Shown: one piece after another, positions 2,652 through 48,355 of the stretch
How positions within the stretch are numbered: the stretch's first letter is position 1
Layout: each line of letters starts with the position of its first letter
Source: Apostichopus japonicus
Taxonomy: Eukaryota; Echinodermata; Holothuroidea; Aspidochirotida; Stichopodidae
DNA length: 64,000 nt
Assembly: GCF_037975245.1 (NCBI RefSeq)
Contig: NC_092571.1
Span: 2,894,501-2,958,500 of the forward strand
Direction: 5' to 3'
Made by a program: the position numbers and the translations under genes
The notes under the pieces: generated by a model
The model's input: only the letters and a program-made list of their open reading frames with translations
What the model was told of the DNA's origin: nothing
Databases searched by the model: none

Positions 2652-2696
<45 letters not shown>

Positions 2697-21345: not shown

Positions 21346-21407
21346 GGTATATTCTGTGACAGTAAGACATTGTAGCAACTCTATAGTCGTTTTCAAGTGA
21401 TATCAGC

Positions 21408-21439
21408 ATGGCCACCAACAGTTCCTCTGAAGCGAATTC
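21408..21439 (+). CDS. Exon 1 of large scaffold gene (start codon)
   Basis: ATG in context AGCATGG, encoding MATNSSSEAN plus two bases of a serine codon, followed by donor GTAAGT. The phase-2 end fits the phase-2 acceptor at 22880 exactly (TC plus G), which is the main reason for choosing this start. The next in-frame start-like codons inside exon 2 would cut into the propeller. Confidence 0.65.
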
Positions 21440-24400
21440 GTAAGTTTAACGAATTAATGATATTGATTTTCACTAGCAAACTACAACTCACACAAACAGT
21501 ATTTTATAGGAATTAACGCCATCGCGGGGTTTAAAGTCACAGGCGAGTCACCTGATGGTCACCTGATGGCTAAATGAGTCAAGTACAATTAAGGAATTAT
21601 TTATTTTAAATTATTTACATAACATTAATGCATTAAAACAATGTATCTTGATAGGAGGAATGTAGCATGTGCTACACCAACTAGAGACCACTGGTCTAGC
21701 TATTAACTATTAACCGATGCTTGAGAACAATATACCATTGATAGAAGGAATGAACTGAATACAGTACTATGTCCACCTGGTATACATATGTAAACTGACA
21801 CACATACTGCTCATACATAACAGGCCCAGTGCAGCCGCATAAGTAATAAGCTATCTCTACACAGTGAATGTCACATTATCTAAAGCATTTGCCTTTTCGG
21901 CAGCTAATCCTCTAATTTCCATTTGTTTGTCATGTGAGTATCTCTTTCAATTACATTTCATAACATCAATGCTTTTGATTTGTGTCCTCTTTCATGTATC
22001 TCAAACTTAAGTATGTTTACTATTGAAGATTTGTTGTGATATTTCAGTGGCTGTATGACAAATTGGCTTAACAACAGGCAAAATTCATGTCTCGCGAGTT
22101 GATTCGCGACTTAATTAGACTAAACTGTTAAGGGATGGGATTTCTACATCTCTTTGTTCCGGTATAAATTTAATTTTTATTTAGATATTGTGAAATACAA
22201 TTTTTGTTAATTGAGGGTGACAAACTGGAAGTGAACGCCCTTAAGAGACGTAAATATGGGGATTATCTCCAGAGTAACTTTAAATGGGACATAATGGAGC
22301 TTACGGGGTCAATATATACATTCCATACTTTATATAACAATACTCACAACTCAAAATACAATGCTAACCCGACCCTATATACCCTACCATATCCGAACTT
22401 GCATAAAGCTAAATGAAGGAGTTCCATCAAATGCAAAGGTTAGCTGTAGTTACGTGTTAGACTTTGCAGTATTCTATTGTACCATTATATTAGATTAAAA
22501 GCACAAAAAGACGTCATATGGACAATCCCTTTAGTAAGGTTTATTAAACGTTATTTTACTATATGATGAATCATCAAGGTACACCATGAATACCATGGTC
22601 ATTACATATACTGCGATCACTTTATTAATTCCTCTCTTAAGATTCTCAGCTTTCGGATCGTCATACACATTTCCAGATTTGCAACTTTTTCAAGTGCAGT
22701 GCTTTAAAACTCATTCGACATAAAAAATAAAAATCTTGACGTTTGGTTACTATCATTTACTATCATTTATAAGCTGTGCAAAATCCAAAGCTCACTAATT
22801 ACAATATTCATCCAAATATCAATGGATACATAATACCTGTAACAACTATAGGTGCATTTTTCGTTTTCTCTACGTACAGGAGACATTTGCATTGTACAAC
22901 TATCCGTAGATTCTCGACAGAAGATAATTGTCATGTATTCTGTATGGATTTACAGAAGGATGGTCGCCGCATGGCCGTGTCTGGATACAATGAAGAGTCA
23001 GCCTTCGTAGACCTTTTTAGCTTAGATATTGACTCCAATTCTCACGAAAAACCGTTGCTTTCGTCTCAACCTACCTTTCGTTTTGTGCAATCGCTAGAGT
23101 CATATGAAATTAGACCATGCGTTTGCTTTCTGAATGATGATTTGCTCGTATCATCTTTTAGAAATGCAATAATATTGTACGATTGTAAATCTGGCCAGGT
23201 CATCAAAGAGACGACATTGAACAAACAACCCACTTGTATGACAACCAGAGACGATTACATTTATGTCTCGTTTGGATATCTCATCTTTAACGTCAAAATT
23301 GCCAAGAAGGTGTTTGTCTTTGATATTAGTTTGAATAAAATCAGGACAATCACCTTACGAGGATTAAATGACAACGACTATCCAATTGACTTTACCGTTA
23401 ACGAAGATCAAATATTTTGTACGACTCATTTCGGAAAGGGTTTACTTTTCAATGCAAGCGGAGATGTAGAAAAGAGGTATAAGCATGCATTCTTTGATGC
23501 ATTGAGTGTAACGTTCAACGAAGTTATTGGTTTAGTAGTTATATTATGGGGTAATAGTAATCATGATCGAGTTGTTACTATCTGCCTTCCCTCTGGAGGT
23601 CCTTATTTGGCTACATTTAATGTTCCTCTTTATTCTGTGAAAATCAGAATCAACAGTAACATAAACAAGTTCTTTGTCGTTACTAAGGAGACGGGAGAAG
23701 TATACGAATATGACACAGTAAGTAATAATAATTTATTTTTAAATATCCGAATCTTTCACATGCAGTTCTATAGATCACGATCCTTGGGAATGAATATCAG
23801 CAAGTTTAGTATGACTGTATGAGCACACAGCAAGCAACTGCGGGGGAAACATTCAGCAGCGAAAAACCTACGTAAAAAGCTTCTATAGAGTTTATCATTA
23901 AAAATAATGAATATAATGAAATCAAAATAAAATAATGATGTAGCTCGTGCGTTAGGAGCACATTTAAAGTTATATGATCAAACTTTTCTTTGAGAAAAAG
24001 AGCGTTGAAGTGATGATGCATGGTCGTTTCGTTACAAAAAAACTTCGAAGGTTAAATACGAACTGTACGTTTCTATCCCTTACAGGAAGGTGAAGCTACG
24101 AAATTAAATTGCGCCATAAAAATTAGATGATTAAGGGGACAAATTTGACCTTGCCAATTTGGAAAGGGGTGGGCCTTTGTGGTAGGTCTTGGAAAGGACA
24201 AAATTGTTCTCCCCCTCCTCTTAGAAAATCAGAGTAAAGTAAAACTAGATGAGACATTCCCGTAGTTCAAAATTTCAGAGTTATTCCTTTCTCTGGCATT
24301 TATTGTTGGGCTTCAAAATCGTTACGAGAGGAAAACATCTCTAAATGCTAACGCTTCAACCATACTCCAAAGAAAACAAAACGTAAACGGAAGATTTCTT

Positions 24401-27400
24401 AGGTATTTTTATCTGGTAAGTGGCTCAAAGAAATGAATTAACACAAACAACAGTGTTTTTTCCAAAACCATATCCTTAACTGTAGAATCTTCTTGAAATA
24501 ATCATTCCAGTAAAAGTTGTGGACAAACTGCTTCGAACAGTATATGAAACGAGAAACGCCTTAGTTTCTAAACCAACACGTAGGCATAACAATTAAAACT
24601 ATGCCTATTGGCCTCAGAAGGGGGGAGGGGAACTAACTTTGTAAACTGTGTTTTTACTCCTCAATGGAAGCCAAATTAATTCATGCGATGTGATTGCGCG
24701 TGTCTATATGTGTGTGTGTGCTTGGGTAATAACTTGGTTCGTTAACACCAACTCATACATGTTGGTTTAACTTCATACTTTGTATTTGGTTTAGATCGGT
24801 AAGTACGAGCCTATTAGCCCTCGTGGGCGTTGTGTGGGACGGTGACAATAAGGTTAATTAAGGTATTGAAACAATGTAATCACAATATATATAGCTATTA
24901 AAGGAAAGCTTGAATGAACACACTAGGTTTGGTGCACTGGGCAAGTACAAGAATGTCACTTTTAGGGGAGTCAAGTGTCATTTGAGGTCAACAGAGGTCA
25001 AATTCTTTACCATAGTAAAGATTGTTAAGATTAAACTTTTATGAATACAACACTTGCTGTGTGGAACAAGACTCAACAAAGCATTTGAGTTCAAAGTCTG
25101 AAAACATATACTTGAACTATGAAGTTGCAACTTGAAGTGAGGGCCTCGACGGATTGTTTTCTGCGCAGGTCAAAAGTCACAACAGTTCAAAGTGTAAACT
25201 TCAGCAGGTTTAGCCAAGGCGAATATGAAATACGTTAGTTATGTAGACCACATAGTAAGCACAGTTAGCATATTCTTTTTTTTTCTGGAGTTTAAAGGCG
25301 AGTAGAGGTGAAAAGTTTAAAAAAGTTTAAATCTAATTAGTCCGAAAGTAAAGTTTGAATGAACTTGCCAAATTTATAGGTAGATTAACATCAATGTGTA
25401 TCATTTCGGTGAAAACAATGGTGAAATCGTAACATATTTTGTGATCATTGTACATAAATGTCTCATGTTGCATTAGACTCATTGACTAAGCCCGTTCACT
25501 TTCTGTTTGTTCTCTATCTCAACTATTATTTCCTAGATCTCAATAAAGGTGGCATGTAAGTTATTTATCCAACAGTTGTACCAGAAATCTAAATAGCTGG
25601 ATGGTTCCTTCACCTCATGAAAGACATGTTGTGTGGTACGATATATTAAAGAGTAAGATGACAAAATGGGTTTCCAATAATTTTGAGAAGTGAGGTGACT
25701 AGAGTTTATTTGAAAACCGGATTTGCACTTTGATCTGTAACGCGTAGGAAAAAAGAGGGTATATTCAATACTTTACAACTACGTGTTTCTTGTTTCACAA
25801 GAAGAAATGAACGCAATTTCATGATAAAATATATAACTTTTTTCCTATTTTGTTCTTATTGTAGAGAGATATCTTCACTTTTGACGATCTACTTGCATGG
25901 TTGTCTTCATCCATCGCAAATGAAGACCAAATGAAGTTATTCCGTTACGTTCATGGGCAGCAAAAGCACTATGAACCAACGTTTATTGACAGGACCATCT
26001 TGCAACACATGTATGAACATCCAAGAAAGACAGAGAGGCTTTCTGCCGAAGAATTAATGGAGGCATGTTATCACGCAGGGCTAAGTGAAGCAGTAGAGGT
26101 GATATCTGTATACCAGAAGATACAAAGCAAGTGTCGCACTAAACAGCGTAAGGCAAATTCACTTTAAGAAAAATATTCAGTCGACTGCAATTGTCACATT
26201 TATTGCATTCATGGGATATGTTAACAGTATGGAGGGAGGCAAACAGTTGTGGAACTGCAGAAACGCACCTGAATTAAGTGCACAACACGGCAGATTCGGG
26301 GGGGGGGGCTAAATGAACACCCCACCACCACCACCATCGGGTGAACCAACACTGTATTTATTTAAAAAAGAAAATGGCATGAAATTCAAAGTTGTGACAT
26401 ACTTAAATGTCATATAACCCAGGACAACCATTCAACAACTTTCGAGAGGAATATTGATCGATTTCGAGACTGACTAGCAATTTAGCGACCGTCTGCAGTG
26501 ATTAGTTGATCAACGTTTCGAGATATAAAAAACAAAAACAAAAACCGGTAAACTTGCTTCAGAACTTCAACTTCAATGTTATTGGCTGGAGAACAGGGCA
26601 CCCTCAGAAGCTGCTGAACCCCTTTTAGACCTTGTTCGTCTTCCTAGCGATAAAAGGAAATTCAGAGGGAGGAATTGCAATCTTCTCTGGAATCTGTCTC
26701 AGGGCTCTATATTAGAGGTCCGACGGGGGGGGGGGGGCGCCTGAAAGGTAAAACTTTTCAGATATTTATTATACTCTCTGGTAGCGAGTTTAAAACACAG
26801 AATATAGATATTCTATGGAATTTATTTCAAAGCCATGGTGTGGGTACAGGGGGAGACATCCTACATAAGTTGTAAGATGTTAAGACATTTCTTGTACTCT
26901 AGTGGGTGTTGGGACTTTAACCTGCAGTGCCTACAGATACTTCTCTTGTAGGTATGTAATTTAACCATGCACAGACTGAAGCACATTTCAGAGAAGAATT
27001 CAGTTTTATCGTGATGTATTTTAAAGCCGGTGGGGTTCAGAGCGGAACCGCGGAAGGTATAAACATTTTATTAGGCTAATAATACCTAATCTGGGAAATG
27101 TAGATATAAATGTATCATATAATTAATCATATGTTTGAAAAGAAGGAAAACACGAAAAGAAATTTAATGAGGAGTCAAAGTCGATGTGTAACCACTGTCA
27201 AAGTAATCAAGGACGTCACATGTTAAACCATGCTGACTTTATCCGAAAGCAATTTCATTGAAAAAGTTGAAGTGCTAAGTTCCACACTACATTTCCAGCA
27301 CAAAACATTTTATTTAGATATAGCTTGACGTGACTTCAATGGACGTGATTGTTATACCAACTTCGATTCCATTATAATTGTTGACTCCAATTAATAACCA

Positions 27401-30400
27401 CAACTGATGCTAAGGACCATAAGCATTCCCCATTAGTATATATTGACTAAATGATAACGTATAAAGCATCTTTGCAAATGTGGTAGGAAAGATCAATAAT
27501 TGTTTCTGATTCTAATTTATACACATTTTAAAGATCCGGGAGTCATTGGAAAGCTTCAAGCAATGCCTCATGGAGAGCAACAATACAACACACACGTCGG
27601 GAGGAGAGAGAGGAAAAGGCAACAATTGAAAGAAAGACCCAAGGCAGCAGAGCAGGAGAAACAAGAACTCATTGATCAACTGATTGAAATGTTTACCGAT
27701 AGACTGCAAGCCACACAAGAAAGACTGCAAAAAATAGAGGCTGACAATTTACAATTAACTCAGAGCGTAAGAAAAATACTATCTCTTTAAAACCATCTGC
27801 ATGACCTAATTTGTAGCCACCAGAATAAAATCATTCCATTGTGTACCTGATTCGAGAACTGAATTTTATGTCTTCCACAAGGTATATTTTCTTCGTGAAA
27901 TTTTTAAATTGGAATTTACTTTCAGTGTATCAAACATATATCTCAATATGTAGCAGTCCTTTAGGCTCCCTTAACATATATAGTTCATGGGTTTAGTTGA
28001 ATAGTTGTGTTCATTAAAACCTCCATATAATTTTTCAGAAGAGAATGATCCTAAACATAGGTTATCATATGCTAGAAAGTTAACACAATAATCTTTCATA
28101 TTTTAACTGCAACGAGCATATCTTTCCGCCCCGTGACCTTTCCCATACTTGAGCCGTTTAGCCATCTTATGTGAATACCAAAAAAAAAAGAAAAAAAGCG
28201 CACATTCCTATTCTATTTATGGTAACGTTTGAGAAGTTGCATCTTCGTGCACTAAAATCTATGGAACGAATATTGCAGTAAACTATGCCACAGGGCAAGG
28301 TCTGAAACACACATGACACAATCCCAGTTTGCTATTATGGTGCTACAATGGACACAGAGACGATGTGGCCCATCAAGATTTATTGGAATTGTTTTTCATT
28401 GAAAATGATAGTAAATCATACCTTTTGATGGATTGTACTTACAACAGCGCAGCTGGGCATGCAGAGAAAAGTCCGAGATAATGTATTTCAATACTAATGC
28501 TCATTCGCAAGTTAATAGGCGTATAATCAAATCTGACTATTTCGGACATTTTCAGAAGGAAGAGATGCTGAAGGAGCTCGGTGGGTCGAAGAAAAGCTTG
28601 AAAGTTACAAAAGATGAGCTGGCGAAGTATCAGCTGAAGTTTGCCAAAGAATCGATGGCATTGGAAGAGGTCTTGAAACATACCAGAGAAGACATGTACA
28701 AAACGGTAATCGTGAGAATATTGTTATTCGGTTGTTGAAATATCATTTCCATGGGTTAAGATGGCAAATGCCAATAAACATATAATTATGAAGGTAATTC
28801 ATTCAGTACATGAAATCCAATCTTTCATACAATATTCAATTCAGGTTGTGTAACTAACATTTGACAAATTATGTAATCTACACTGACAACGTCTTCGACT
28901 AGATATACTTGTTTGTAATGTTTAAGTTTGATCCAAACCATTTATCATAAGATATTTACTGTCTGACTGTCTGTTTTATCAACAGCTTTCACCTGTGTCT
29001 GCTCATGAAGAATCTTTTCCTGAAGAAAGAGAATCTTTAGACTTAAGTCGAGGATCGTCTTTAGCTGGTAAGATCATTCTGCACTAACAGTTAATTTAAT
29101 GCTTGCATGCCTGTTTATATATCAACAATTGGAATGTTACGATACCCCATTTTGTCTAAGCTTGACTTTTTGTGTAGACGCCCTGCTCTGAGTCTGCAAT
29201 TACCTGCTCGGAGCTGCTCAAGATTATGTAATCAACTAGTGTTCTGTAATGGAGATGAAAATGGAAAACTCTCGCTTGTAAATATTGAATACGATGATAG
29301 GAATTAACGTAATGACACTCCTTGAGATGACAGATGTCTATCCTTACATAAAATATCGTGGTGTATTGTGGGTATGAAGCGTACCACTGGTTAAGGTCCA
29401 TGTTTAGACATGTATGGAATGTAATACATCGTTTGAGGTACGTCCAGGATTAATGTGGTATCTATCTTTTTAAGTCAGTGTTACATGCTATGAGTGGATC
29501 TGTGCAGTAAAGACGTCCATTATTTGACAAGTCTATGTACTGAATAGCGTCAGAAGAACATACTGTTATATGTTGCTGGATGACACCTGGGTCTAATAAT
29601 CAAACCATTTAAAAGCAGTTGAAATTGACTACGTTGCTTCTGATTCTTATATGCACATCAAACAGTTAAGAGACTAAAAAATAAAGGTACACTTGTTTTG
29701 GGAGTTCCTTATCAGTAAACAGATTAACTTGTAACACGTATACACAATCCCAGGAAAAAATTTACCCCAAATTTACCGCGGTAACATACCACACTTTTAC
29801 CCCGGTAAAACCGGGGTAAAAACGCGGTAAATTTGTTGTACATTACCGCGGTGTTTTGGCCCTATGGACGCGGTAAACCGCGGTTTACCGCAGTAAATTA
29901 CCACAAATTTACCATGGTTTTACCATACTTTTACCCCAATTTTACCGCAATTTACCACGGTGTTACCATACTTTTACCGCGCTTTTACTACACTTTTACT
30001 ACGCTTTTACCCCAAATTTACCCCAATTTTACCGTTCTTTTACCCTAATTTACCATATTTTACCACGCTTTTACCACAGTTTACCATTCTTTTACCCTAG
30101 ATTGACCACGCATTTACTACACTTTTACCCTAAATTTACCACAGTTTTACCGTTCTTTTACCCCAATTTTACCGTAGATGTACCACGCTTTTACCTTAAT
30201 TTACCTCAATTTACCATACTTTTACCACGCTTTTACCCCAATTGTACCGTATAATTACTACGCTTTTACCTCAGTTTTACCTTAATTTACCATGATTTTA
30301 CACTAACTGTAGGACAGTTTTACCTAACATTGAGCATGATTTTGTCCTAACTTCGATCAGCATGTATACCATATATTTCTTTGAATTTCACCCATCAATG

Positions 30401-33400
30401 TACTGTATCATAATTTGGCTATATGCCTTTACCCTTATTGTAATGGTTGTATGCCTGACATGTAAGTCCTCAGTTGTAGAATGCAACAGTTTTTAATTCA
30501 TCAAATCCATGGAGGTTTCACATAGAGAAAGCTTTGTTGAATTTCAATCACCCTAGATGATATGATTCCTGACTCTTTTCTATTGAATTAATTGGTAGTC
30601 CAGATTGGACTTTTGATCTCTTATTGTCCTCAAAGACTTGTTTTAAATGAAAAAGATGACATTGACTTGTCAAGTCATTTAATGGACCTGACAGAGAATA
30701 CCCAAATCTGAGGACACTGATTGGTCAATTTTTGTGTGCCACAGTGTTGAGGCACAGAAGCTATGCCTTATGTGTGCTAGTTTATATAGTTCTTTTTTTT
30801 CATTTTAAAGGCTTTTAGGTTCTCCCTAATAATGAAAATAGAATTAATTGTTGTCTCCTCTCAAATATATCAGGGATTCCATGAAGGAATTCTCTATGTA
30901 TCTATCCTCTCCTTGTTTTTTTAGGAAAAGAGATGCATACTATAACATATAAGAATAGCAGTTTGTCTCTCTTCTTTATTCAACTCATATCCACAGGTAA
31001 TTTATATTGCCAACATTAAGATATGAATAGAACAAAAGGTTTGTCATATCAGTATTGCAAATATATGGGACAAAATCATGGAAAATTGCTGTAAATGTAC
31101 CATCATGTTTCATAGTGTGACCCATATATGTTCTACTGTGGTAAAATCATGGTACAATTATGGTAAATTTACCATAGTATAATTGCACCATATAGATTTA
31201 CCCTATTTTTACATGGTTAATCATGGCACAATTGTAGGAATTTCACATATGTAGTTTATGTACCATATAAACTTACCTTATAAATTTACCGTAGTAAATG
31301 TACCGCACTTTTACCCTACTTATACCGCGGTAATATCATGGTAAAACTGCGGTAAGTTTACCGCGGTAAATGTACCACACTTTTACCCTACTTTTACCGC
31401 GGTAATATCATGGTAAAGCTGCGGTAAATTTACCGCAGTAAATGTACCGCACTTTTACCATACTTTTACCGCGGTAATACCATGGTAAAACTGCGGTAAA
31501 TGTACCGCGGTTGATTTTACCACAATTTTACCACACATTTACCCTATTTACCACACATTTACCATAGTTTACCGCGGTAAAATTAGGGTACATTTTTTGC
31601 TGGGATTACTATGCACAAAATTAATTTTAAACTTGTACATAACGTTAACTAACTGATATCAGTTCAAGTTGTATTCCATTACTACTTTTGATTTGAGAAA
31701 TGATCCATTTAACCAGACAGCTGTGATTCATCAGTTCAAGTGACTTAACTATACAGTCTAATTCCCAAACAGCTTATTTTAAATTTTATTTACTTGAAAC
31801 CGTATAGCTATGAAAAACGTATAACTATGTTAAGATAGAAACATATAAATACTACTCAAATTATTCTTATCTTGAATATTATTTTCAAGACTAACATTCT
31901 TCCTAAACTCACCCTTTAAAAATGACCAATTTAAAACAAGTGCAGCAACGCTTCAGAAGCTCAGCCTACCTCCCTTTTAAGAAATGTGTTTCAATTGGCA
32001 ATATTTTTGAGCAGTTTATCCATATATACGTACGAAAAATGTTAGACGGAGGGTAATGGTGTCAGTACTTTCCTCCCATCTTCTTTTTTCCTTGCTTTAT
32101 GTTCCTTCTTCAAGCAGACTTGTTTGTTACAATGTTAGAAAGTTATATTCCTTCAAAGGAGAAACGCTGTCACGAACTTATTTCAAGCAAAAGATTGTTG
32201 TACTAATCACTAAGGATAAACTATGCCCCATTGCAAAACCCAAAACCAACAGTTTATGCACTTCGTGGTTTTCATTTATGCAAAAATAGAAAGAAACATG
32301 AATCCCTTTGCTAAACCTGCTAAAATGGTGTGGATATGACGTTTCACTTGTGCTGACCCAAAATTGCTCACGCAACTTGCACCATACAATAACAGAACGA
32401 CCAGCAACTTGTTTACAATCGACGTACCACAGAGAAACGTTAAGGAGCAGAAATCGGAATCGGTTCCTACAATAAAGGTCATTTTTCACATGTCGTATTA
32501 CGGACACAAACCGTGAAAAAGTCCAAATTGCAAATCTGCCAGGTAATCCTTTTAAAGAGAATGGCATTGAACTAGAAAGGAAGCCTGAATAAGAAGTAAA
32601 TATTTGAGAAAGTCTCCCACTGGTGGAACTATTTCCAAAAATGACGGGGAAATAAAGATGGAAGACATTTTGCTACTCATATCAAAACACATACTGTTCA
32701 TGAATACCAAACAGGTCAAAGAAAAATTTCACAATCATTGCATATTATATGTGGACTTCATTTCATCATAAATGAAACTCTACAAAAGACCCTCTTTTGG
32801 TCCTTCACATGACAACAGAAATATTTTTCTGAACAACTTTGGTTTACCACCATTCCAATGTTATATCCACATTTCAGCAGATTTGGACAAACGCTATAGA
32901 AGACATAGCATGTTTACGTTTTCAGAAGATGACCTCTCGTGACCTCAAATAACCTTCAAATTTATAAAATAAACTTCTGACGAAATTTCAGCCAAATTGA
33001 AAATGATGAAGTGGCAGTCATTCAAACACGGTGGCAAAAAGTGAGAGAATTTCGGCAGACTCACGATCGCTACAGCTCAGCTGAAAGCTTTCAGCTGAGC
33101 TTAACATTGGTTGAAGCTCTTGCATAATTGCTTCTATTTACATTCTATTTTCATTTTAGCTGATTATGGAAGGTTGATGGTCGGAATTGCCGAAAACCTT
33201 ACACTGGACATCACTTTGAGATTAGCAACGCTGTTTGGTTTACCACCGGCAGAAGCTGATATGCTTCGTCGGGTTTCATTCCTTGAGACCCCAGGGATCA
33301 CTCTACTGAACTTCATGAAGACACGAAATATCATCAATATGTATGATCTTACTAACTTGCAAAAGGGATTGATACTCCTGCAAATGAACAGGATTAATGA

Positions 33401-36400
33401 GAACCTGATAGTACCATACCAGAGCAAAATTGATCCATTTCACTTTGAAGAAAACCAGGCACCAAAATTACTTGATTGGCCAACCGGTAAGAAAATTTGT
33501 GAATATCAGAGCAAAAAAGTGTTTCGCAGATGATTGCAATATTTAATGTGTACTACAAATGTCACTGTGATTGATACATGCCGTTTGAAAGGTAATATAA
33601 AGTGGCAGTATTTGGATGGAAACACAAATCTGTACTATCTGTCGGTTTTGAGTTATGTCATACACATAGTCTTTCAAGTTTAACACCTTCTTGTTTAGAT
33701 AACTATCAAGCTTCACCATTTGCTGAGGAAAGACCTGTCTCATCCGAAGAATCCGAAGAAAGAGATATATCAGAACAACAACATGACGAAGCGAGTTTAC
33801 GAGAAAGGACAGATGACCTAACAACATCAACACAAGTTTCATCACCGATGCGATTAAGACGTCACCACCCATACATAGAACACAAAATCAACTGTGAGGG
33901 CGGTACCATCAGCATCACAGGGGTGCGTCTTACAATCCCCGATGATGCCCTACCGAATGATCATGTGATAGCTGTAAATGTCATCTACGATCCTGAGATA
34001 CACCTTCCTGGGGGTGCTGAAAGAGGCAGAATGACACCTCTGATAAAGCTAGAGCCAGAAGGACTCAACTTATGCAAGACAGCAAGTCTGATTATTCCTC
34101 ATTCAGCTATTATCCCTGAACCAGATCGTCATAGCGTCATTGTTTTCTTTGGACAGAAAACTGAACGTGAAACAGGAGGTAATTATTGCAGCTATAGAAA
34201 GCTATGAAGATAACACATGTGCCCTAAATTGATATATAAATCGCAATCGAAAGTTGAAGATGACATTGTTTCGTACGACTTATGTAATTTACCATTGTCA
34301 TCTTCATTGAAATTCTTTTCGACATTTATTTGTTGTGCAGGTGAGATAACTTGGACTGAAGAGAAATCTCTTTGTTGGAAGTTAGACTCGGAGAAGATCA
34401 CTCTTGACATTAACACCCTGAGCTACGTCTTTGTAAATTTAGTCAGCCAAGAAACAGAACAGAGACACACTTTCCGAGTTGTTCCATTTATTGATGCAAT
34501 ACTTGATGCTAAAGATGATGTCTTAATAACTGTTTGTTGCTGTAGAGATATTGATGAAGAGTACAAGGTGAGAATTGTTAAAGATTTTATAACTCAAGTA
34601 GGCTTAACTAAACTTGCAAGGTAGTGCACGCATTTCTTTTCTGTTTTCAGTACATTTCTCTTTTTATTCTGGTAGAGGTGTTATAAATTTACAAAATATA
34701 CAAAACCAAATGATGGCATTGTTATATGACTAAAAACGACAGAGGAGAAATAAAATTATCAAACTACCAATAGCGCACATAAAGATTTGACGAGCAGTTA
34801 CGAAAGTTTACTTCATTTAAGAGCCAAATTTACTTACATTACCAAAGACCGTTCTAGTTTTCCATGGAAAAGTTGTTCTAGTTCTATCGAGTCTGGTCTT
34901 GTTTCTGATTTCCATTGTCATAATCACTCCATCCCAATAATGATGAGTGGAAGAGAATCAATAATGATAAGTATATAGAAATATGTCATACGATCCCTCC
35001 TTGCTGAATTAAGCTTGAATTTCATATCGTTATATTATAGTTACTGTTAGAAGACCATCAGTCCAAACTGAGTCTAGGGAGCTTTGCAACTTTTCAGATA
35101 AGTCGAACATTAAAGGAATGTGGAGATGATACGTCCTACGTTGAACTAATGATGTCATCAGAGGATGGTAGCTACCAAGTGACAGCTGAATTATCAAAGG
35201 TTTGATCTCATTGCAATCAAATGGAAACTCTGAAAGGTTCAAAGATAGAGGATATGTAGTTCATGAAAAGAAAAGTGTCAATTTTGTTTGTAGTAAATGT
35301 GCAGTAAACATATGTTGTCGAATAGCGACAAAAGTTAGGGACGTAAGTTACTCATGTTCTTTGAGTATTTGTTGTTTTCATGGTTTTCTATTTTGTGCCA
35401 TATTTGTATTTCATTGATTCATATTTGGATCATTCCTATTCAGTACCTTCTTAATATTAACAGGTCAAGGTTGATCATCTGTGTGCTGCCAGTAGAACCA
35501 CTCATCAGTTCAGAATGAAGAAAATCCAAGATGGAGACATTGATTTGGTTGATGTGAAGTTGAAAGTATCACAAGATGAAAAGAACCGGATATCCATTAT
35601 CCTCCAGTCGAAGGTGAGATCGATTTTCAATTTGATGATGACTGGCGCTATGTGTAAAGTTTGTTCACCGATCTTCAATACACACCTAACCAAACACATT
35701 AGTATACTAGTGACTTACTTATCAGAAATTTAAGGTCACGTGATGTGATATCTTGGTACAGAGTTTGATGTAACGTTTAATTTGACTCTTAATAGTTAAG
35801 GTAGCTATAGTGACGTTTTCGTGTTTATTTATTGTCCTGCAGGTAAAGGATATTCTCCTTTCTCCAGAAAGCAAAGGAATAATTTGTAAAGACGTTCAGC
35901 CAGGTAAATTGTCCAACTGTGCAGTCAATTAATATGGTTCTGAATACCGAATTATCATGTATGTACTTTTTATTGATAAGAGACAAACATAAATAAAAGC
36001 AACTTAAGAAAGTATTTTTACAAGCTATTTGTTGTTCATATTTTAGATGACAACTTTGTGAACTTATATTACCATACTGTGAGTAAACCGTTCGATATTA
36101 CTGTATGGCATTTGGCGCATTATCATTATTTTTTCATTTTTTAATTGCGCTATACTTCACTGCAGTATGTTACTATGTCATGGTCTGCTTTCTCAAGCAA
36201 TTTACATTTTCTTCAAATTTTATGGCATATTGGCACTTTCAGATTTGCAAGAATACCAGAAGTTGATACGGGAGGTATCGACACGTATGGACAAACAACA
36301 TTGTGAAAATCTGGCAATGTGTTTCAATCTCTCGCCTGCGGAAAATGAGATGATAATAAAGGATGCAGAACCTGGAAAGATTTTGCTAAAAATATTAGAT

Positions 36401-39400
36401 GAAAGAGAACTTATAATGCCAGATAAAATGATTACCTTGTATGAAGGATTAAAGGTTATCCATCTCAATAAAGTAGCACGACTGGTTCTTGAGTACATCG
36501 ACACAAGGAGAAGTAAGGAACAGGAATATGAAGGGGAAACCGGTGAAATTGAAAAGGTTTGATATTTACCGAAATAAAATTGCCGAAATGAAAAAAGAAG
36601 ATTTCAATAAGGAAACAAATCGACGAAAATTTACGTTGTCTATGTTAACGGAAAGTTACTCTCAGTTAACTATAAATTGACTTAATTCAATCAATATGCT
36701 TATCTGCCAACAAACTTTACCAACCGCTTCACCGTATTATTATTTAAATAAAAAATATGTTATTTAAAATGTTACTTCTTGGGCACAATCATTATAAAGT
36801 GCAATTTGAATAAATCCATGTTGACCAGAATATCCTGCCAAACTTGTAACTGTTATTCTCAGTAATTAACAGTAGAGGTAAATGTGTTGCGATGATTTCA
36901 ATTATTGCAACTTATTTCAGCGCCATTTATGGTAAATTTATCTAAATATTGTGATAATATTCCACATCAGGTTGCTCGTTCCATTTTCTCGTTTTGCTAA
37001 TACAGGGCCAGCAGGAACAGGAATTGAGCCCAGGAAAGGACTCGAAACATGCAAGAAATATCAAGATATTGGTGGAAGAGGGATATACGAGACTGAACAT
37101 CCAACGAGCGTTGAGGTTGTCTCATGGTAAACTAGACTTGGGGCGAAGGGTGTTGCAACTCGTTAAACATGAACATGGTAAAGTAGTGAAGAGTTCACCT
37201 TTCAATTTGGAATTGCTAACATATATTCCATCCTTATTATCTCGTCTCTATACGTATTGTACTGGGGATGGGATAGTGTACTGAATCCACATTTTCTGTT
37301 TTGCAAAATTAACAGTAAAAGCCTTTGCACACCGCTTGAGGAACTAAACTAAAAGTTGGTGGGCTAATATGACATAATAGGATGGGGAGGGGGGGGGGGT
37401 GTTCTTCGACTTCGGATTTAATGCCTGCGTGACTATTGACGTCATTTGCTCAAACATTATTTTGGCAATTACATGAATACCATCAAAATAATATGGACGA
37501 AACCTACAAGCAAGTAGGATAACCACAGACTACATATTTACAGTGCATTAATCCATGGACAATGCACTGGCCACGTGATCTAAGAAGGTAATGGTTAACT
37601 TGGGCAAACTAGTAAACGTACCAAACTGACCTGATATGTGCGCTGTTAACATATTTCAAGTCTCAAGAATATTGCGGTAGCTAAAGTTGATTGCATAACA
37701 ATATTGCTAGAAATTTATATTTAGTAACTAGCCTACTAGTTTCTATTTTTGATTAAATTCTTCCTCGTGTATAACATTCAAATGATGTCACCGCGTTGAG
37801 CCGCATGGACTTTGTGGAACAGGTTACGTCGAAAAACTTTAATTACAAGGAACTTACAGTAAACGCATACATTTCATTTTAAACTAGGCATTCTCTAGTG
37901 ACAATCATTGTACATATACACTACAGGTATGGTTATACGTTAAATGTTTACTGTCCAATTGAAAATGGAAGCTGTGGATTCGTTACTTGTTGCTAGCTGT
38001 ATTCATGTGAGGAGGCATATCTTTGAAGACATTTACGTCATTAATAGGCTTTTCTCATAAATGTTCCAAACGTGACGTTTATGAAAATCCGTTTTTATTA
38101 TGTTTTCAGAGAGGCTTCCTCTTTTTCCTGGATCTAACCTTTACAGAGAGCAATACATTGACCAGCAGGGAGGAGATATGTTGATTGCTGGTGTTATTTT
38201 AATTGTACCAACCGGTGCCTTACAGACTGGACGAATCGTCAGCATAACAGTTTCTGCTGATTCAGCTATTCAAGGACCGATTTCAAAGGAGAGTCTTAGA
38301 CTAACACCATTTGTTAAATTTGGACCAGAAAACCTTACTTTACAAAAACCAGTCACCTTGATAATTCCACACTGTGCATTGGCTTTAAGTAACTGCGATG
38401 TGGATGTGTATTCTGGCGCACTACAACCAGGTGTTTATTCTATTCTCGCTAATACTCACTGAGGTCAACCATTTAATAAGTACTCCTCCTCTTTCATAGC
38501 AGCCACAGATGTCATGATGTTGTTGTTATATGTAATTAAAGCTTTTTTATCACTGATTTATGGAGTATTTATTTTAGTTCTTTATTTGTTTGTTTCTTTT
38601 GTTTGTGTTCTGTTTTTGTTTCTGTGTTTTGGTAAAGCTTATCAGTAATGATATTGCACCAAGCAAATTAAAGGTAATGCTTACGTCTGAAAAAAAAGAA
38701 CATGGCATATTTCGTTACAGAAATAAAAGCAACTATAATTCTTTTCAAATAAAAAATTCCATGTGACAATGATAATACATCTACCAGGATCAATTTTCAT
38801 TAAATCATATATACAGTGACACAATCTGTAAAGATAATTTTCCGAAGTATCAGAAATATGCAATCAATATTAAAAGCATCATTTACTTCATTTCAAAATT
38901 TTAATTGTTGTTAACTTTAATTGTTTTTCCCTTTAGGTATTACCAAATTAGTCCAGCAGAAAAAGACTATTGAATGAATTATGCGCCCATTAAGTTCACC
39001 TAATTTAATTTTCTGTAAAAAAAATTGGGAAAAAATCCAGTTGAAGGGGATTTTTAACGCGTGGTATTCAAGAGTTAATTTTTTTTAAATTGCTTGTAAC
39101 TAATTACATTGCACTATCAGACATTTATGCTAACCTCAACTTTTAAGCGCTTTAGTCTGCAAAAAAAAAAAAAAAAATAAGCCGAAAAGCGAAAACATTC
39201 AATATGTTATACTTAACCATTATTGATATAAAGTCGGAAATTTATGCAAACAAATATCATCTATTATTTTCATGACGTCTACAAATGCCTTGACTTGGTT
39301 GCTTTAATATATATTTAATTAAACTTTTATTTCTGATTGATAGAGTATTGCTTTTATTTTGGGGGGCGGGGGCAATGCTCATAAGTAATTATAGTCCACA

Positions 39401-42400
39401 AAACACAACGAGTGTACCCCTTATGTTTCTGAGATTAACCTGGAAGCATATCACACAAAAATAGTACGTGCTACGCTCTGTTAATCATGTAGTGTTACAA
39501 GTAGTTACAATGGAAGATTCACTTTGCTTATTTTTTCCAGACAAAACATTGAAATGGAGCCTTGAAAACGTCACCTGCTCTATGAATGCTCATCAACTTG
39601 AGGTTAAAACTCAGAAACCTTGTCTGCTTGGTCTCCACGTCCCTTACAAACCCAAGATGAAGAAGCGTCTTTGTGTCATTCCGATCATGAAACGAGTTTC
39701 TAACCTAGAGGATGACTTGACAGTTAGTCTTTGGTTTTACAATGATGACAAACTGGAATATGATGTAAGTAATAAATATATATATATCATTTTATCGTTA
39801 CTATAGTCGTAGTGGGAACATGGATGGTATCAAAAAAAAAAATGCGAAGCATCTTGGTCGTCATATTTTAATCAAAATCTATTAAATCTTTATGTTCATT
39901 CAAAACTATGTTTCTGAGTGGTATTTAACTTCATGCAATTACTTATGAAAACCTGACTACAGCATCGATTCGTATATTCGAAACATGTTACAGTTATTTG
40001 AATATATGCTGAGTAACTGTACGGAATCTCTCGACTAAGTGTGCATAGTGTTAATTTTAATAGCCAAATACTTTGTCGGGAGTCCAGTCGCGACCTTGTG
40101 AGGGTACTACCAAAATCTAAAGATAAACTAGTTTCCTGTCCATATGTATTTCATGGCGGGAGAAACTATTCGGTACGACAACAGTGAAATACTTTCAGCA
40201 TCATATGTAAATATTTTTCTTAACAATAACTTATGTTCGATCTTTTGGCCAGAGTCTCATCAATGAAGAAGTGTACAACCAAAGAGGAATAGAGCTCCAT
40301 AAACCTATCTCTATTTTGATTGAGTCCTGGACTTCGTCTGTGCCTGTCACCATTACCAGCAACAACATACAGTGCACCCCACATCCAGGTTTGAAAAAAG
40401 TGGTAAGTTTCTACCAATACATATTGCTTATCTTATTTGCCTGTTGTATTTGAATATTTTCAACATTTCGTTAGTGAGGATCGACAAAAATGCTTATATC
40501 TGTTTTTATTTTGATTACTTATTGTACATGATGGGAAAGATGTTCGATAAATTGTTTCTAAATAAAGCCAAGAATTAGTTATGATTTTGATTCAAGTTTT
40601 TTACTCATGCTTGTGTAAAGAAGCACAACCATGACAGCCTCAGAATTATTGAAATAAAAAACACATTTTGTATTTTAATGACAGAATTATTGTATTATAA
40701 ATGAAATAATTAGGAAAGGTCAATCACGACATTGTAGAATAAGACTATGCAAATTTTTGGGGCTAACCAAGCATCTTTCCTGTATTAAATTGATTGCGAT
40801 GTTGTTCGTGACATTAGTCTAACGAGTAATGCAAAATAGCCACTATGTCATTGAAATAAAAAAGTGAAATTATAACGGTTATTCTGTATAATATTAACAG
40901 CTGGTTTATCGCAAATATTTGTATCATTTATTGAAGTACAACTTTCTGATTTTCTTCCTATTAAAGGATGTCGACATGGAAACCCTTTGGTTACAGAACA
41001 GACTTGAGGTTGCCTTACTACTTCAGAATAAAGGGATAAGAGATGATTTCAGTCTGGAAATTGAGTCAAAATATGGAATACTGAGGAAAGTCCTCTTTCA
41101 GTTTCATATTCAACTGAAGGTAATTATGTAAATAAATGTGTAGTTTTGTACCTGAAAATTGTGGGACGATGTAATAGCATGTTAGATCAGAGGCCCGAAA
41201 ACGGTCCATTATTTTTCGTTCCTTATTTCCCTCAACATAAATACCAACTCTATCCTAATGATGATTTTTAGTTACTCTACCGAACTGAAGAATTTAGCAC
41301 CATATAAGTTATACCTCAATGTAACCGAGTTTTTCGAAAGCAGACAGCTCACTGCATATTCATCTACAGGCTTCAAGACCGAGCATACCATTCAACATGA
41401 CTACAAACATGATCCAAATACCAAACTCTCCAACTTTGTTGTAATTCTTGTTGCGATTTGATGTTTACATTTGTAAATATGTCAATTGCATGAGCAATCC
41501 ATCCGTCAATATAAGCAGCTACTGATGAGACCCGGTAATTATTCTATGAGACCCGGTAGTTATCCTATGAGACCCTTTGAGATCCTATGAGGCTCAAAAC
41601 GCGACTAGCAACAGGACATCTAGTTTTTACCAAACAAAATCATACACCCCAACCAGAAATTTCCAGGTACCTCATAATTTTTATCCCAATGGAATATATA
41701 TTTTCACAGTACCATACGACCATATCGGTTCCCACAATAGTTATCCAATTATGACTCTCATTACTTGTATATATTTATTATACGGCAACGTCACAGAGTC
41801 TTGGGGAGATCACCACTGTCTTTAATTCAAACAAATTGACTGAACCACGACCCACCAAACCCTCAACCCTCATAACCGATGGTCAGAATGCATGAAGCTT
41901 GAACTAGCTTCAACTGTAATGTAATGTCAAAAAAACTTCGGCAAGCTCCGAAGACTGTAGATAAATTGTTCGACGTCTTGGTAAAATTGTACCCAGTAGT
42001 TTGTGGACGGTCGGTTTAGACACCCTTTCTCCGGGTTTTGTCGGTGAAACAACTGTTTTAATGGAAACAGAAAAATGTATTCTCTTTTCCATTCCTTCTC
42101 CTTGTTTGTTGTCTATTGCATTGACTGTATCGTCTCATGAGGAGTAAATTGTTATTGTGATTAGGAAGGGTCTCTTTCATTTATGACTATATGCATCTAT
42201 GGCATGTCGCCGAATTTTAAAGAGCATGATTCACTTTTGAAAAGCCACTTGACAAATAGAGGGTGCTTTTAATTATCTACAATATGATTTGAAATCCATT
42301 GCTGAAATAAAATGAAAAGTAATGGAATGGCACCTATACCCTCAGAGTTACTACCACACACTTCAATCTTGTTCGATTTTGGCAGCCAGTACCATTCTAT

Positions 42401-43187
42401 ACATATAGTCAAATGAAAAACATGAAAAATTCCCATTTTGTTCTTGTAATAAATTATTAATATACTGTATAAACGAAGGTATATTAATTGCATCATATTT
42501 TTACACAGCATATCTTCGAGTTACAAATGAATGTTATTATTGTTCATTTTATTTCTTCAGGTCGAAAGGTTACTACGCAACGATCAAATCGTATCTCCAT
42601 TCCAACAAATAATACCTGAATGTAAGTGTTCTGCAGCAGTGTATCAATATTTACCATATTGATTTGGGATGAAAACAATGTCAAACGATTTAGAAGTGTT
42701 TAGCCTTTTCTGAAGCTTGTATGTACCTTTTCACTAAACTGCCCCAAGGTTTCCTCTGCATGCTTAATGTACAGGGATTGAACTGTACGTAGGGCAATGT
42801 AACATATATTAATTATGACAATAACCATAAATCTCCCACTCCCCTTTCTTGCTCTCTCCACCTCTTGACTGAACAGATATCATCGGATCTTATCACCAGC
42901 TAAAGCAGAACTTATCAACGCGTCTTGATGCCGACCAATCTATTCAGCTTGCAAACGTCTTCCAACTTCACCAGGATGTCGTTGCTAACATCGGGAAGCA
43001 CCGATCTCCTGGACCTATCTTGCTAGAAATGTTGACTAAAACTTCAAAGATATCCCCAGCGAACATCTCTGCTTTGGAGAATGCTTTAACAGAGCAAGGG
43101 AATGAAGAATGTGCCGAACTTATCAGATATTTCAGAAAGGAAAATCCAGTGGTTGAAGCCACAATGTGTCCAAAAATGAGTATTTAA
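21408..43187 (+). CDS. Large death-fold / ZU5-UPA / UBA scaffold protein (20 exons, 1575 aa)
   Basis: Exons: 21408-21439, 22880-23717, 25865-26147, 27534-27766, 28556-28705, 28986-29067, 33160-33486, 33699-34178, 34341-34567, 35041-35199, 35464-35613, 35843-35903, 36243-36556, 37006-37177, 38110-38430, 39541-39764, 40253-40402, 40967-41119, 42561-42621, 42877-43187. All junctions are AG/GT and phase-compatible; the total is 4728 nt with no internal stop. Domains by residue: beta-propeller 11-290, death-fold 291-384, coiled coil 385-512, death-fold 540-648, ZU5 ~700-808, UPA 809-1007, death-fold 1008-1112, UBA-like 1113-1169, ZU5 1170-1276, UPA 1277-1472, death-fold 1473-1575. There is no signal peptide or membrane segment, so a cytosolic signalling scaffold is inferred. 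The start has good context (ATCAGCATGG). Two adjacent genes joined by mistake remain possible, with the break before 38110. Confidence 0.72.
22880..23717 (+). CDS. Exon 2: beta-propeller-like domain
   Basis: A single 838-nt exon encoding about 280 residues. It shows roughly six blade-like repeats, each ending in an aromatic or charged turn: FVDLFSLD, AIILYDCKSGQVIKETTL, KVFVFDISLNKIRTITL, GLLFNASGDVEKRYKH, and a final GEVYEYDT before donor GTAAGT. The acceptor is CTCTACGTACAG. WD40/NHL-type propellers are protein-interaction platforms; the exact family is not recognised. In TRIM- and Apaf-like proteins such domains act as sensors, which is only an analogy here. Confidence 0.72.
23718..25864. 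other. Intron 2 of large scaffold gene with dispersed repeat
   Basis: A 2.1-kb intron bounded by GTAAGT and TTGTAG. It contains a repeat-family stretch at about 24930-25330 (TTTGAGGTCAACAGAGGTCAAA and related words). No other exon fits the phase. Confidence 0.5.
25865..26147 (+). CDS. Exon 3: first death-fold-like domain
   Basis: It encodes about 94 helical residues beginning RDIFTFDDLLAWLSSSI, with ERLSAEELMEACYHAG and a C-terminal VISVYQKI helix. The pattern of amphipathic helices and the late L-S-x-E-x-L motif resemble death-effector-type domains, but the match is weak by eye. It enters at phase 0 directly after the propeller exon and leaves at phase 1 (CAG C before GTAAGG). Confidence 0.6.
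27534..28705 (+). CDS. Exons 4-5: coiled coil
   Basis: Exons 27534-27766 and 28556-28705 encode charged heptad-rich helices. Exon 4 has EQEKQELIDQLIEMF and ATQERLQKIEADNLQL; exon 5 has KEEMLKELGGSKKSLKV and ESMALEEVLKHTRED. Phases are 1 in, 0 between and 0 out, matching their neighbours. The segment probably mediates oligomerisation. Confidence 0.72.
28986..29067 (+). CDS. Exon 6: acidic linker
   Basis: A short 82-nt exon after acceptor ATCAACAG encodes LSPVSAHEESFPEERE and a serine-rich end, then donor GTAAGA at phase 1. It is an acidic, probably disordered linker between the coiled coil and the second death-fold domain. The size and phase fit both neighbours. Confidence 0.6.
29749..31604. 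repeat. Foldback element rich in TTACCGCGGTAA palindromes
   Basis: The left end reads CCCAGGAAAAAATTTACCCC and the right end, inverted, reads CCCAGCAAAAAATGTACCCT, forming imperfect terminal inverted repeats. Two flanking arrays (about 29760-30300 and 31130-31590) consist of TTTTACC / GGTAAA words, with repeated 12-bp palindromes TTACCGCGGTAA. A more ordinary 0.8-kb core lies between them. It sits in the 4.1-kb intron between exons 6 and 7, and no transposase frame is present. It is most likely a non-autonomous transposon with self-expanded ends. Confidence 0.8.
31605..33159. other. 3' part of intron 6
   Basis: No exon is recognised. Minus-strand frames at 32178-32567 have no domain. A perfect 28-bp palindrome lies at 33074-33101, close to the acceptor at 33159. 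Confidence 0.45.
33160..33486 (+). CDS. Exon 7: second death-fold (DED-like) domain
   Basis: The exon encodes about 109 residues beginning ADYGRLMVGIAENLTLDI, with RLATLFGLPPAEADML and GITLLNFMKTRNIINMYDL, and then a helix. The arrangement (six helices, hydrophobic L..LF.L, a late D-L-T-N-L) parallels the domains in exons 13 and 20. Acceptor TCATTTTAG, donor GTAAGA, phase 1 on both sides, so the exon could have been shuffled as a unit. Confidence 0.68.
33699..34178 (+). CDS. Exon 8: acidic linker and first ZU5 domain
   Basis: The first ~60 residues are acidic and Ser/Glu-rich (RPVSSEESEERDISEQ). The ZU5 domain follows with GGTISITGVRLTIPDDAL, TPLIKLEPEGLNL and ASLIIPHSAII, which are the conserved strands of ZU5 in UNC5, PIDD and ankyrins. 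I do not see the HFS autocleavage motif of PIDD. Symmetric phase 1-1. Confidence 0.85.
34341..35903 (+). CDS. Exons 9-12: first UPA domain
   Basis: Exons 34341-34567, 35041-35199, 35464-35613 and 35843-35903 encode about 199 residues between ZU5 and the next death fold, the position of UPA in UNC5/PIDD/ankyrin. Motifs include EITWTEEKSLCWKLD, HTFRVVPFIDAILDAKDD and VTAELSK. Lengths and phases (1-0, 0-0, 0-0, 0-1) match those of the second module exon by exon. The donor of exon 10 is GTTTGA, a weak site that is also used by exon 13. Confidence 0.78.
36243..36556 (+). CDS. Exon 13: third death-fold (DED-like) domain
   Basis: It begins DLQEYQKLIREVSTRMDKQH and contains NLAMCFNLSPAENEM, GKILLKILDERELIMPDK and a final ARLVLEYID helix, followed by an acidic tail. 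I end it at AAAG/GTTTGA (phase 0) because the phase-1 donor GTAAGG at about 36514 would put the next exon out of frame. If that downstream donor is not used, translation would stop at TGA 36560-36562 and give a shorter protein that ends after this domain. That is a real alternative isoform. Confidence 0.7.
37006..37177 (+). CDS. Exon 14: UBA-like domain
   Basis: Fifty-seven residues after acceptor GCTAATACAG. The sequence NIKILVEEGYTRLNIQRALR followed by a basic-leucine helix (RRVLQLVKHE) has the three-helix UBA pattern: a GY/GF turn after helix 1, then an AL.. helix 2. UBA domains bind ubiquitin, so the protein may couple ubiquitin recognition to death-fold signalling. Phase 0 in, phase 1 out, feeding the ZU5 exon at 38110. 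Confidence 0.62.
38110..38430 (+). CDS. Exon 15: second ZU5 domain
   Basis: Entered at phase 1 after TTATGTTTTCAG. It encodes GGDMLIAGVILIVPTGAL and LIIPHCALALSN, the ZU5 strands. It is one codon shorter than its copy at 1016-1339 and has about ten substitutions. The acceptor phase fits the UBA-like exon upstream, which is the junction linking the two halves of the large gene. Confidence 0.82.
39541..42621 (+). CDS. Exons 16-19: second UPA domain
   Basis: Exons 39541-39764, 40253-40402, 40967-41119 and 42561-42621. Motifs include KWSLENVTCSMNAHQLEV, KKRLCVIPIMKRVSN, HKPISILIESWTSSVPVT and TLWLQNRLEVALLLQNKG. The duplicates at 2421-5528 have the same lengths and boundaries, which supports the exon calls independently. 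Confidence 0.82.
42877..43187 (+). CDS. Exon 20: C-terminal death-fold (DED-like) domain
   Basis: Acceptor GACTGAACAG, phase 1 in, stop TAA. The domain contains YHQLKQNLSTRLDADQSIQL, GPILLEMLTKTSKISPAN and a final ECAELIRYF helix, followed by a short tail ending PKMSI. The I-S-P-x-N-I-S-x-L-E motif in helix 5 is DED-like. The frame has no ATG (the copy at 5785-6095 has one from a Lys to Met change), so simple start-based scans miss it; it is intact. Confidence 0.8.
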
Positions 43188-46709: not shown

Positions 46710-48355
46710 CTAGTCATGGTTTGCTACACATGTCTTAACATATAACAGCAGGGTCGACCCCATTGAGAGACCAACACCAATGATTGTAACGAGGGAAAGT
46801 ATTATGCCTTTAAATATTACGTCATAGCAATAAGCCACTGGTATGGAGAGTGTAATAGCTGTTGCTATGTACATCATATTCTCAGTTTGTAGAGCTTTAG
46901 AAAAACTATAGAAATGCACAATTGCAGTTAATCCTAACAAGATTGATAACAAAATCTCTTGCGTTGTACTAGGCATATCCCAGGAGTCCGTTAATGTCAA
47001 ACAGACGGTTGAAAGCATTGTTCCGCTACACCCTACAATGAGTGATACAAGGCTAGGGTCTTCTCTACCTCTATGCGCAAGTTTTCGAGCTGTTGCTTTA
47101 AGAAGAACGACACACAGCAGAGCAAATAAAGCGATTGAAACTCCAACAAAAGGAGGTCCTTGGCTGGAGGCAGCGTAGTTTTCCATGGACGTCTTACAGA
47201 TAAGGACCAGCCCAATGGCATTTAGAATTACGAGGGCGCCATCAGTCACATCAAACACCTCCCCTAAGAAAATACACGCAAATAATGTTGATGGTATAGG
47301 CTGATTGCAGACGATAGCAGTTGCGTCAGACACTGAAAGAAATCCTGTGGAAAAGAGGAAGGATGACACTCCGATCACGTCGAAAAGTCCGTAAAGAATA
47401 TTGAGGACAAGATCTTGAGAGTCGTAATTCACAGCTTCCTCCCACGAGATGAACGAAACAAACACGAGAAGAGGTAAGCTTCTGAAAAACATTGTCTGTA
47501 GAGAGTTCAAGGCATGCGCAGTCTCTGCAAGTAACAAAACCTGTAAAGTTTGCGAGAGTCCCGCAATTACAGCCCAAAACAATCCTGGTCTCTTACAACT
47601 GAAGCAAAGACCTCCGTCGTCATCCAATGAGTCTTCCCTATCGTTACCTTCACTATCAACAGAAATTTGTTTGTGAGTCACTTTCTGGTCTGCGCAAGCG
47701 CTGTAAAAAGATAGAACAAAAGAAGTTTGGTGATTACCTTGCGTTATTCTTATCAAGCCTTGCAATATTCACATAAATTGTCATTCTAAGTAAATGTGTC
47801 ATCGTTCTTTGCATATAAAACAAGGTCTCCTCTTATAGAAATTAATTTAGGTAGCCTCCCCCAACTTTTTGTGAAATAAATCATCTAGCAAATATTTATG
47901 ACTGCAGTCTTGGCAACTTAGTATATGTAGTACGAACTCCAACAACTCTGTATAATGGGCACCAGGCTAGCAAACTTATGTTAGATCCTTAGTATGGAGC
48001 CCATAGTGAATCCTAAATACAACACCTGCCAACTATACATGAAAATTATACCATTTAAGCGCTGTGTGAAAAGCAGCCCTTTAAAAGTATGCATGAATGT
48101 AGCCAATATGCAACAATACGTGGAAAGTTAACCGTTCTCGTATATGAAATTTTTATAGCCCCTTAGTATCAACTGTGCATGAGACTCAACTCCTAGCAAA
48201 TATACGTATAAAATGTAATAACACATTTTCTTCTTAGTAACCCATTCCCTTATTTGAAACTGTTGTATTTTCTTACACACACACATAAATATATATATAT
48301 ATATATATTGCCTATATATATGGAATAGCGTGTTTATACATATATCTACATATCA

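Follow-up and report, generated by a model that had tools for sequence, protein, structure and literature searches.

Analysis of a 64,000-nt stretch of the Apostichopus japonicus genome (C11:2894501-2958500, hereafter the window) points to a family of multidomain genes, of which the 20-exon gene at window positions 21408-43187 is, judging by sequence matches, one of about 50 copies rather than a one-off. Its predicted product carries a beta-propeller-like domain, DED-like death folds and two ZU5-containing modules with a UBA-like domain between them (Table 1). Reasoning largely by analogy, we lean towards reading this family as a germline-diversified set of immune or damage sensors, probably located in the cytosol, that would signal via ZU5-UPA-controlled DED assembly. 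A preliminary description of the gene had presented it as a unique new type of immune or death-signalling hub; what falls is the uniqueness, while the underlying observation is confirmed and proves to have been understated, the architecture recurring about 50 times and containing an internal duplication. The searches for related genes covered this genome (671,581,487 bases in 35 contigs).

Genome-wide matches were obtained for the propeller exon (131, in some cases with several matches to parts of the same exon), exon 7 (92, of which 57 strong), the UBA-like exon 14 (53) and exon 20 (62), the UBA-like exon copies lying on C15, C23, C19, C16 and C11. A first pairing around the 53 UBA-like exons (using 56 of 131 propeller, 53 of 53 exon 14, 55 of 62 exon 20 and 61 of 150 ZU5 matches, the omitted exon 20 matches being three on C5, two on C15 and two on C19) placed a propeller upstream in 50 cases, a ZU5 domain downstream in 47 and exon 20 in 51, with all three in 44. 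A tighter pairing (54 of 131 propeller, 57 of 92 exon 7, 53 of 53 exon 14, 53 of 62 exon 20 and 50 of 150 ZU5 matches) found a propeller within 40 kb upstream of 48 UBA-like exons, exon 7 at 51, ZU5 within 3 kb downstream at 47 and exon 20 within 10 kb at 49. Matches left out of the pairings lay on other chromosomes, belonged to another family, or were short or low-scoring; the ZU5 and Death genome counts are lower bounds, with 150 of 204 candidates scored for each. All four markers, with the propeller before exon 7, are present at 41 of the 53 loci, and in these 41 (by first-pairing distances) ZU5 precedes exon 20; loss, divergence or limited candidate scoring may explain the other 12, at which a marker was not detected. 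Weaker DED-like relatives of exon 7 (30–42% identity) are also numerous at C16:19-27 Mb and on C22, C10, C12 and C1.

The immune-sensor reading is plausible and, as far as sequence can tell, is backed by the contrast in selection between the propeller and the remaining domains. Pooled over three dispersed paralogues, omega is 0.90 for the propeller vs. 0.27–0.56 for the other domains (exon 7, 0.33; exons 9–12, 0.38; exon 13, 0.56; exon 14, 0.33; exon 15, 0.27; exons 16–19, 0.32), and the 78 pairs among 13 paralogues, namely those with propellers most like the window's, the tandem copy T1 excluded, give a propeller value of 0.87. Two features of a diversifying immune-receptor family, many copies and a propeller evolving faster than the signalling domains, are found. 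Split by column, propeller omega rises to 1.11 at the 98 in which all three outgroups differ and is 0.41 at the 46 that they share. At exon 2 positions 116, 118, 140 and 163, hypervariable residues that offer direct test sites, 10–17 nonsynonymous and 0–1.9 synonymous changes are counted, with about 2 nonsynonymous changes expected at neutrality.

The most serious alternative, which we regard as unlikely but deserving of weight, is a non-immune scaffold family (serving adhesion, cytoskeleton, development or regeneration) that expanded in tandem and whose propeller evolves fast because constraint is relaxed when copies are redundant. It would accommodate the conservation of UPA in ankyrins and UNC5 as well (in the accessible part of PMC3210808) and the neutral tree-based total of nonsynonymous to synonymous changes in the propeller (541:158, p 0.67), which leaves room for relaxed constraint at many sites. 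It accords poorly with a propeller frame in which 51 of the 54 best matches have no stop over their matched length, with the low omega of the other domains, and with a variability that is both focused (123 of 285 propeller columns are invariant) and periodic, column entropy recurring at 19–20 residues (permutation p 0.0002) and 41–42 residues (p 0.012). These periods fit, in part, the half-blades and blades of a putative propeller.

Further observations weigh against the immune-sensor reading along with the neutral total. The periodicity fades, autocorrelation being 0.20 at lag 61 and about 0 at lag 82, and recombination between copies can inflate the site counts. Synonymous divergence is lower in the propeller (0.10–0.14) than elsewhere (0.13–0.42, mostly 0.2–0.3), perhaps owing to gene conversion. 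For exons 3 (0.50), 8 (0.33) and 20 (0.48), omega comes from a single pair of genes, and a value of 0.99 is reached by one pair for exon 13. Between the two closest copies, the window gene and T1, propeller omega is 0.55, exons 3–4 evolve faster (0.91), and exon 14 alone gives 1.54 on 10 changes. Given the neutral total, selection on the propeller above neutrality is not proved.

The gene model itself, rebuilt from raw sequence, comprises 4728 nt (1575 codons plus TAA) from the ATG at 21408 to the TAA ending at 43187, with compatible phases at 19 of 19 junctions and GT donors and AG acceptors throughout; in span, exon count and length it equals the one first described. An extra 32-nt exon was also tried in the model and was dropped because it broke the frame. 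Exons 2–20 keep their order and phase in T1; three copies elsewhere in the genome, on C23, C19 and C15, keep them too, though with gaps (exons in the same order, roughly 29–80% protein identity). At the exact projected positions T1 retains GT at 18 of 18 and AG at 19 of 19 sites (chance about 1 each), and the C23, C19 and C15 copies have GT at 10/17, 9/14 and 11/17 and AG at 10/17, 11/15 and 12/18 (about 1 expected each); these counts cover only chain-found exons, one false C19 exon 3 match having been removed beforehand. A stop near the end of exon 20 recurs in most paralogues. The structure is thus close to established, and the sequence evidence makes a single transcription unit very likely.

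A fusion in the model of two or three adjacent genes (propeller/DED in exons 1–6, ZU5-DED in 7–13, ZU5-DED in 14–20) appears improbable. Such a fusion might be suspected from the length of introns 2 and 6 (2147 and 4092 nt), from the weak donors of exon 13 GTTTGATA and exon 15 GTGTTTAT, from the stop met at once on reading beyond exon 13, and from exon 6, which was found only in T1 (100%) and in none of the three distant paralogues. It is countered by the same order, phases and splice positions (with gaps) in four other copies, by the correct placement of all markers at 41 of 53 UBA-like loci, and by a tandem duplication that covers all 20 exons. Moreover, a dispersed insertion that T1 lacks accounts for about 1.86 kb of intron 6, so that the original intron measured about 2.2 kb. 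The joining of the exons into one gene, as originally proposed, is accordingly upheld by the conserved splice sites and ordered loci.

Two observations concern these introns. Read-through of the exon 13 donor meets a stop immediately (GTT TGA, 36557-36562), so that retention of intron 13 would yield a single-module isoform. The element in intron 6 has 39-nt terminal inverted repeats (90%) and at least 29 other near-full matches genome-wide (40 of 236 candidates scored); its absence from T1 indicates that it probably inserted later than the tandem duplication.

T1 lies upstream, its earlier exons preceding the window, and aligns in pieces from upstream of exon 1 to past the stop, so that all 20 exons are duplicated; the 65 bases at 21381-21445, around exon 1, have 97% identity in it. 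A 351-aa open reading frame occurs twice, in near-identical form and 37.1 kb apart, which sets the tandem duplication unit at about 37 kb with this frame included; by eye we take it to be membrane-transporter-like (EamA/SLC35G-like). T1 carries an in-frame stop in its propeller exon (C11:2880657-2881481), most of its later exons being still constrained. In the C19 copy (C19:5175001-5185000), exon 2 contains a stop, exons 3–5 lie in reverse orientation through a local inversion, and the frame of exon 8 is broken; in the C23 copy, translation of exon 16 meets stops in its first part, and exon 20 sits just beyond the stretch compared. That the window copy is itself a decaying pseudogene among dying duplicates, as these lesions and the 12 of 53 loci short of a marker might suggest, is the least probable of the alternatives, given a frame open over 1575 codons, every splice site present and a pooled omega of 0.29–0.44 against T1 for exon groups from 5 to 20.

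The gene is also duplicated internally: by sequence, one six-exon cassette (ZU5, UPA position, death fold) is present twice, with the UBA-like exon between. Exons 8–13 (480, 227, 159, 150, 61 and 314 nt) and 15–20 (321, 224, 150, 153, 61 and 311 nt) match in phase and, the linker portion of exon 8 aside, are near-equal in length. An hhalign alignment of the two ZU5 domains together with what follows them spans 169 columns (E 1e-13), and exon 20 is homologous to exon 13.

Profile searches of the exon translations, as had been recommended, recognized ZU5 firmly, Death and UPA not at all, DED below cut-off, and UBA and the propeller weakly. Of the two ZU5-UPA modules originally described, both ZU5 domains stand (Pfam E 6.9e-20 over two stretches of the product; exon 8, 1.4e-7; exon 15, 4e-13), with PDB profile matches of exon 8 to ZO-1 (E 0.0021) and UNC5B (E 0.012) and of exon 15 to UNC5B and ZO-1 structures (E about 3.5e-5). 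UPA in both modules is inferred from position only. The four death folds were likewise borne out as related domains, of a kind that looks like DEDs rather than Death domains: exons 7, 13 and 20 are homologous to one another, and Pfam Death matched neither the whole protein nor exon 20. The PDB profile search with exon 13 returned four cFLIP sequences as its sole matches (E 0.39–0.40), exons 20, 7 and 3 giving no DED-type match. The described domain order, including a UBA-like domain between the modules, is supported, the UBA-like assignment on a weak profile match: six of the seven PDB matches of exon 14 are CBL or CBL-B chains of 46–56 residues (best E 0.032), which we take to be UBA domains. 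As for the proposed propeller sensor, the propeller-like exon 2 does behave like a recognition domain, and its profile matches are weak, the PDB search returning IFT122, AIP1, YncE and other propeller proteins (best E 0.0072 over 63 positions). The folds of the propeller, the UPA regions and exon 3 are thus predictions.

Several of these searches belong on the same side of the balance as the selection caveats above. Neither UPA-position region was matched by Pfam or PDB profiles. Pfam DED on exon 13 (E 6.7e-4) scores 20.3 bits vs. a gathering cut-off of 35.9, also not reached by its C23 and C19 paralogues (21.5 and 13.2 bits), and exons 3, 7 and 20 have no Pfam DED match; none of the 45 Pfam DED matches in the genome falls at the family's DED-like positions. 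Pfam UBA matched neither exon 14 nor two of its paralogues, and Pfam propeller matches of exon 2 are weak (E 0.026–0.076), its C15 paralogue having no Pfam match whatever. A Pfam search of the protein up to E 1 detected no leucine-rich repeat (LRR) and no TRADD-N, of which a divergent copy could escape; NACHT, CARD, ectodomain and ankyrin-repeat matches were likewise absent from the Pfam results. The HF/S autocleavage motif of PIDD (described in the accessible part of PMC3210808) has no counterpart, as HF[ST] or [SH]F[ST], in the 1575-aa model, the one sequence scanned for it. By eye, there is no obvious hydrophobic start or transmembrane stretch, which suggests a probably cytosolic location.

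Table 1. Features of the window, in window coordinates.
Feature	Position	Strand	Description
T1 exons 15-20	1018-6092	+	upstream tandem copy
T1 matches	1018-1338, 2423-2644, 3180-3329, 3887-4039, 5468-5527, 5787-6092	+	91-100% protein identity
351-aa open reading frame, copy 1	9604-10659	-	transporter-like (presumed)
Exon 1	21408-21439	+	start codon, short N-terminus, aa 1-10
Exon 2	22880-23717	+	entire beta-propeller-like domain, aa 11-290
Exon 3	25865-26147	+	helical, DED-like domain 1; weakest assignment
Exon 4	27534-27766	+	probable coiled coil; heptad-like repeats in paralogues (translations read by eye)
Exon 5	28556-28705	+	probable coiled coil; conserved in C23, C15 and C19 paralogues
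Exon 6	28986-29067	+	acidic linker
Dispersed element in intron 6	29748-31605		1.86 kb
Exon 7	33160-33486	+	DED-like domain 2; among best-conserved parts
Exon 8	33699-34178	+	acidic linker and ZU5 domain 1
Exons 9-12	34341-34567, 35041-35199, 35464-35613, 35843-35903	+	UPA 1 position (by position and length only)
Exon 13	36243-36556	+	DED-like domain 3
Exon 14	37006-37177	+	UBA-like domain
Exon 15	38110-38430	+	ZU5 domain 2
Exons 16-19	39541-39764, 40253-40402, 40967-41119, 42561-42621	+	UPA 2 position
Exon 20	42877-43187	+	DED-like domain 4 and stop codon
351-aa open reading frame, copy 2	46710-47765	-	transporter-like (presumed)
Simple repeat	51796-52359	-	translates to YHTIP-type repeats; no gene implied

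The mechanism that we propose draws on analogy with NLRP1/CARD8 and PIDD, as presented in the accessible parts of PMC7794386 and PMC3210808, respectively. The propeller, with its fast-evolving loops, would bind either a microbial product or a guarded host protein as its ligand, and this recognition would lift the inhibition of two successive ZU5/UPA/DED-like modules in which ZU5 acts as the restraint. With help from the coiled coil and the UPA-position domains, the freed DED-like domains could then assemble into a seed for a platform of either DED adaptor/caspase (FADD/caspase-8-like) or NF-kB type, while the UBA-like domain between the modules may couple activation or clearance to ubiquitin. 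Ligand sensing, assembly and partners, like the cytosolic location, are thus putative.

A bolder formulation, offered tentatively and with somewhat less than even confidence, is that of a germline recognition repertoire of about 50 propeller receptors, each with two complete ZU5-UPA-DED modules separated by a ubiquitin reader. Such a receptor would be a "double-barrelled" relative of PIDD and NLRP1, its pair of DED seeds per chain sharpening the threshold, and would be accompanied on C12 by a single-module, Death-signalling sister repertoire. If true, this would be a new receptor class whose diversified part is a propeller instead of leucine-rich repeats, and an economically important echinoderm would possess a receptor repertoire built on ZU5-UPA, not NACHT. 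In size that repertoire would be comparable to those of NLRs or TLRs that have expanded in other marine invertebrates. The gene family would also provide a naturally occurring example of ZU5-UPA control in duplicate.

The sister family fills C12 with propeller exons at 30–38% identity to exon 2. Of the 56 C12 propellers, 54 were paired, the other two being short, stop-containing fragments; downstream of 38 of the 54, ZU5 and then Pfam Death occur before the next propeller. This pairing used 63 of 131 propeller, 95 of 150 ZU5 and 150 of 150 Death matches; propellers on C15, C19, C23 and C16 were chosen by eye, and their numbers are counts rather than rates. The one copy examined has two DED-like exons between propeller and ZU5 and a single detected ZU5. 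Thus, the sister family shares with the window gene the propeller family, a DED-like pair and ZU5, and differs in its Death-domain end and (in that copy) its one ZU5. On C15, two genes with the UBA-like exon are followed about 6 kb on by ZU5 and then by a Death domain, which suggests exchange of terminal modules. Both families together may account for part of the large number of Death-domain matches in this genome (at least 150, from 150 of 204 first-look candidates scored). Possible relays for DED signalling are the 45 Pfam DED matches genome-wide (32 above cut-off) and three DED-then-Death pairs at C16:1.87-1.90 Mb, 1.3–2.0 kb apart, the DED of one pair being interrupted by a stop; by sequence these pairs could encode an array of FADD-like adaptors (C16:1.86-1.91 Mb).

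Comparison with known systems places the window gene closest in layout to several ZU5-UPA proteins. PIDD1 comprises LRR, ZU5 domains, UPA and a Death domain. The two are alike in a repeat-type N-terminal domain, the order ZU5, UPA (by position in the window gene) and death fold, and a probable role as death or NF-kB platform; the window gene differs in a propeller-like domain in place of LRR, two modules, DED-like domains in place of Death, the lack of an HF/S motif, a UBA-like domain and about 50 copies. With NLRP1/CARD8 (FIIND, i.e., ZU5-UPA, then CARD) it shares the character of a putative cytosolic sensor with ZU5 and a putative UPA beside a death fold capable of assembly, UPA promoting filament formation by the adjacent CARD in those proteins (accessible part of PMC7794386); it is set apart by having no Pfam NACHT or CARD, no SF/S motif, a duplicated module and DED-like tails. 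UNC5/UNC5CL and ankyrins show the ZU5-UPA-death-fold order that is predicted for the window gene, whose ZU5 matches UNC5B (E 3.5e-5); the window gene differs in its second module, in death folds that are DED-like and not of the Death type, and in having no Pfam ectodomain or ankyrin repeats. These genes have likely been annotated automatically before; a double ZU5-UPA-death-fold protein appears in none of the titles and abstract openings among the full-text literature matches listed, a set outside which most subscription journals fall. The nearest published work, to judge from its accessible part, is a survey of lineage-specific DED/TRADD-N expansions in marine invertebrates (eLife 2021, PMC8195603), which also reports UPA-ZU5 fusions and includes amphioxus DED-TRADD-N-WD40 proteins. 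As far as that part describes them, the window gene differs from these proteins in having no Pfam TRADD-N match at E ≤ 1, an N-terminal propeller-like domain and paired putative ZU5-UPA modules, and it resembles them in belonging to an expanded family in which DED-like domains are joined to a probable propeller.

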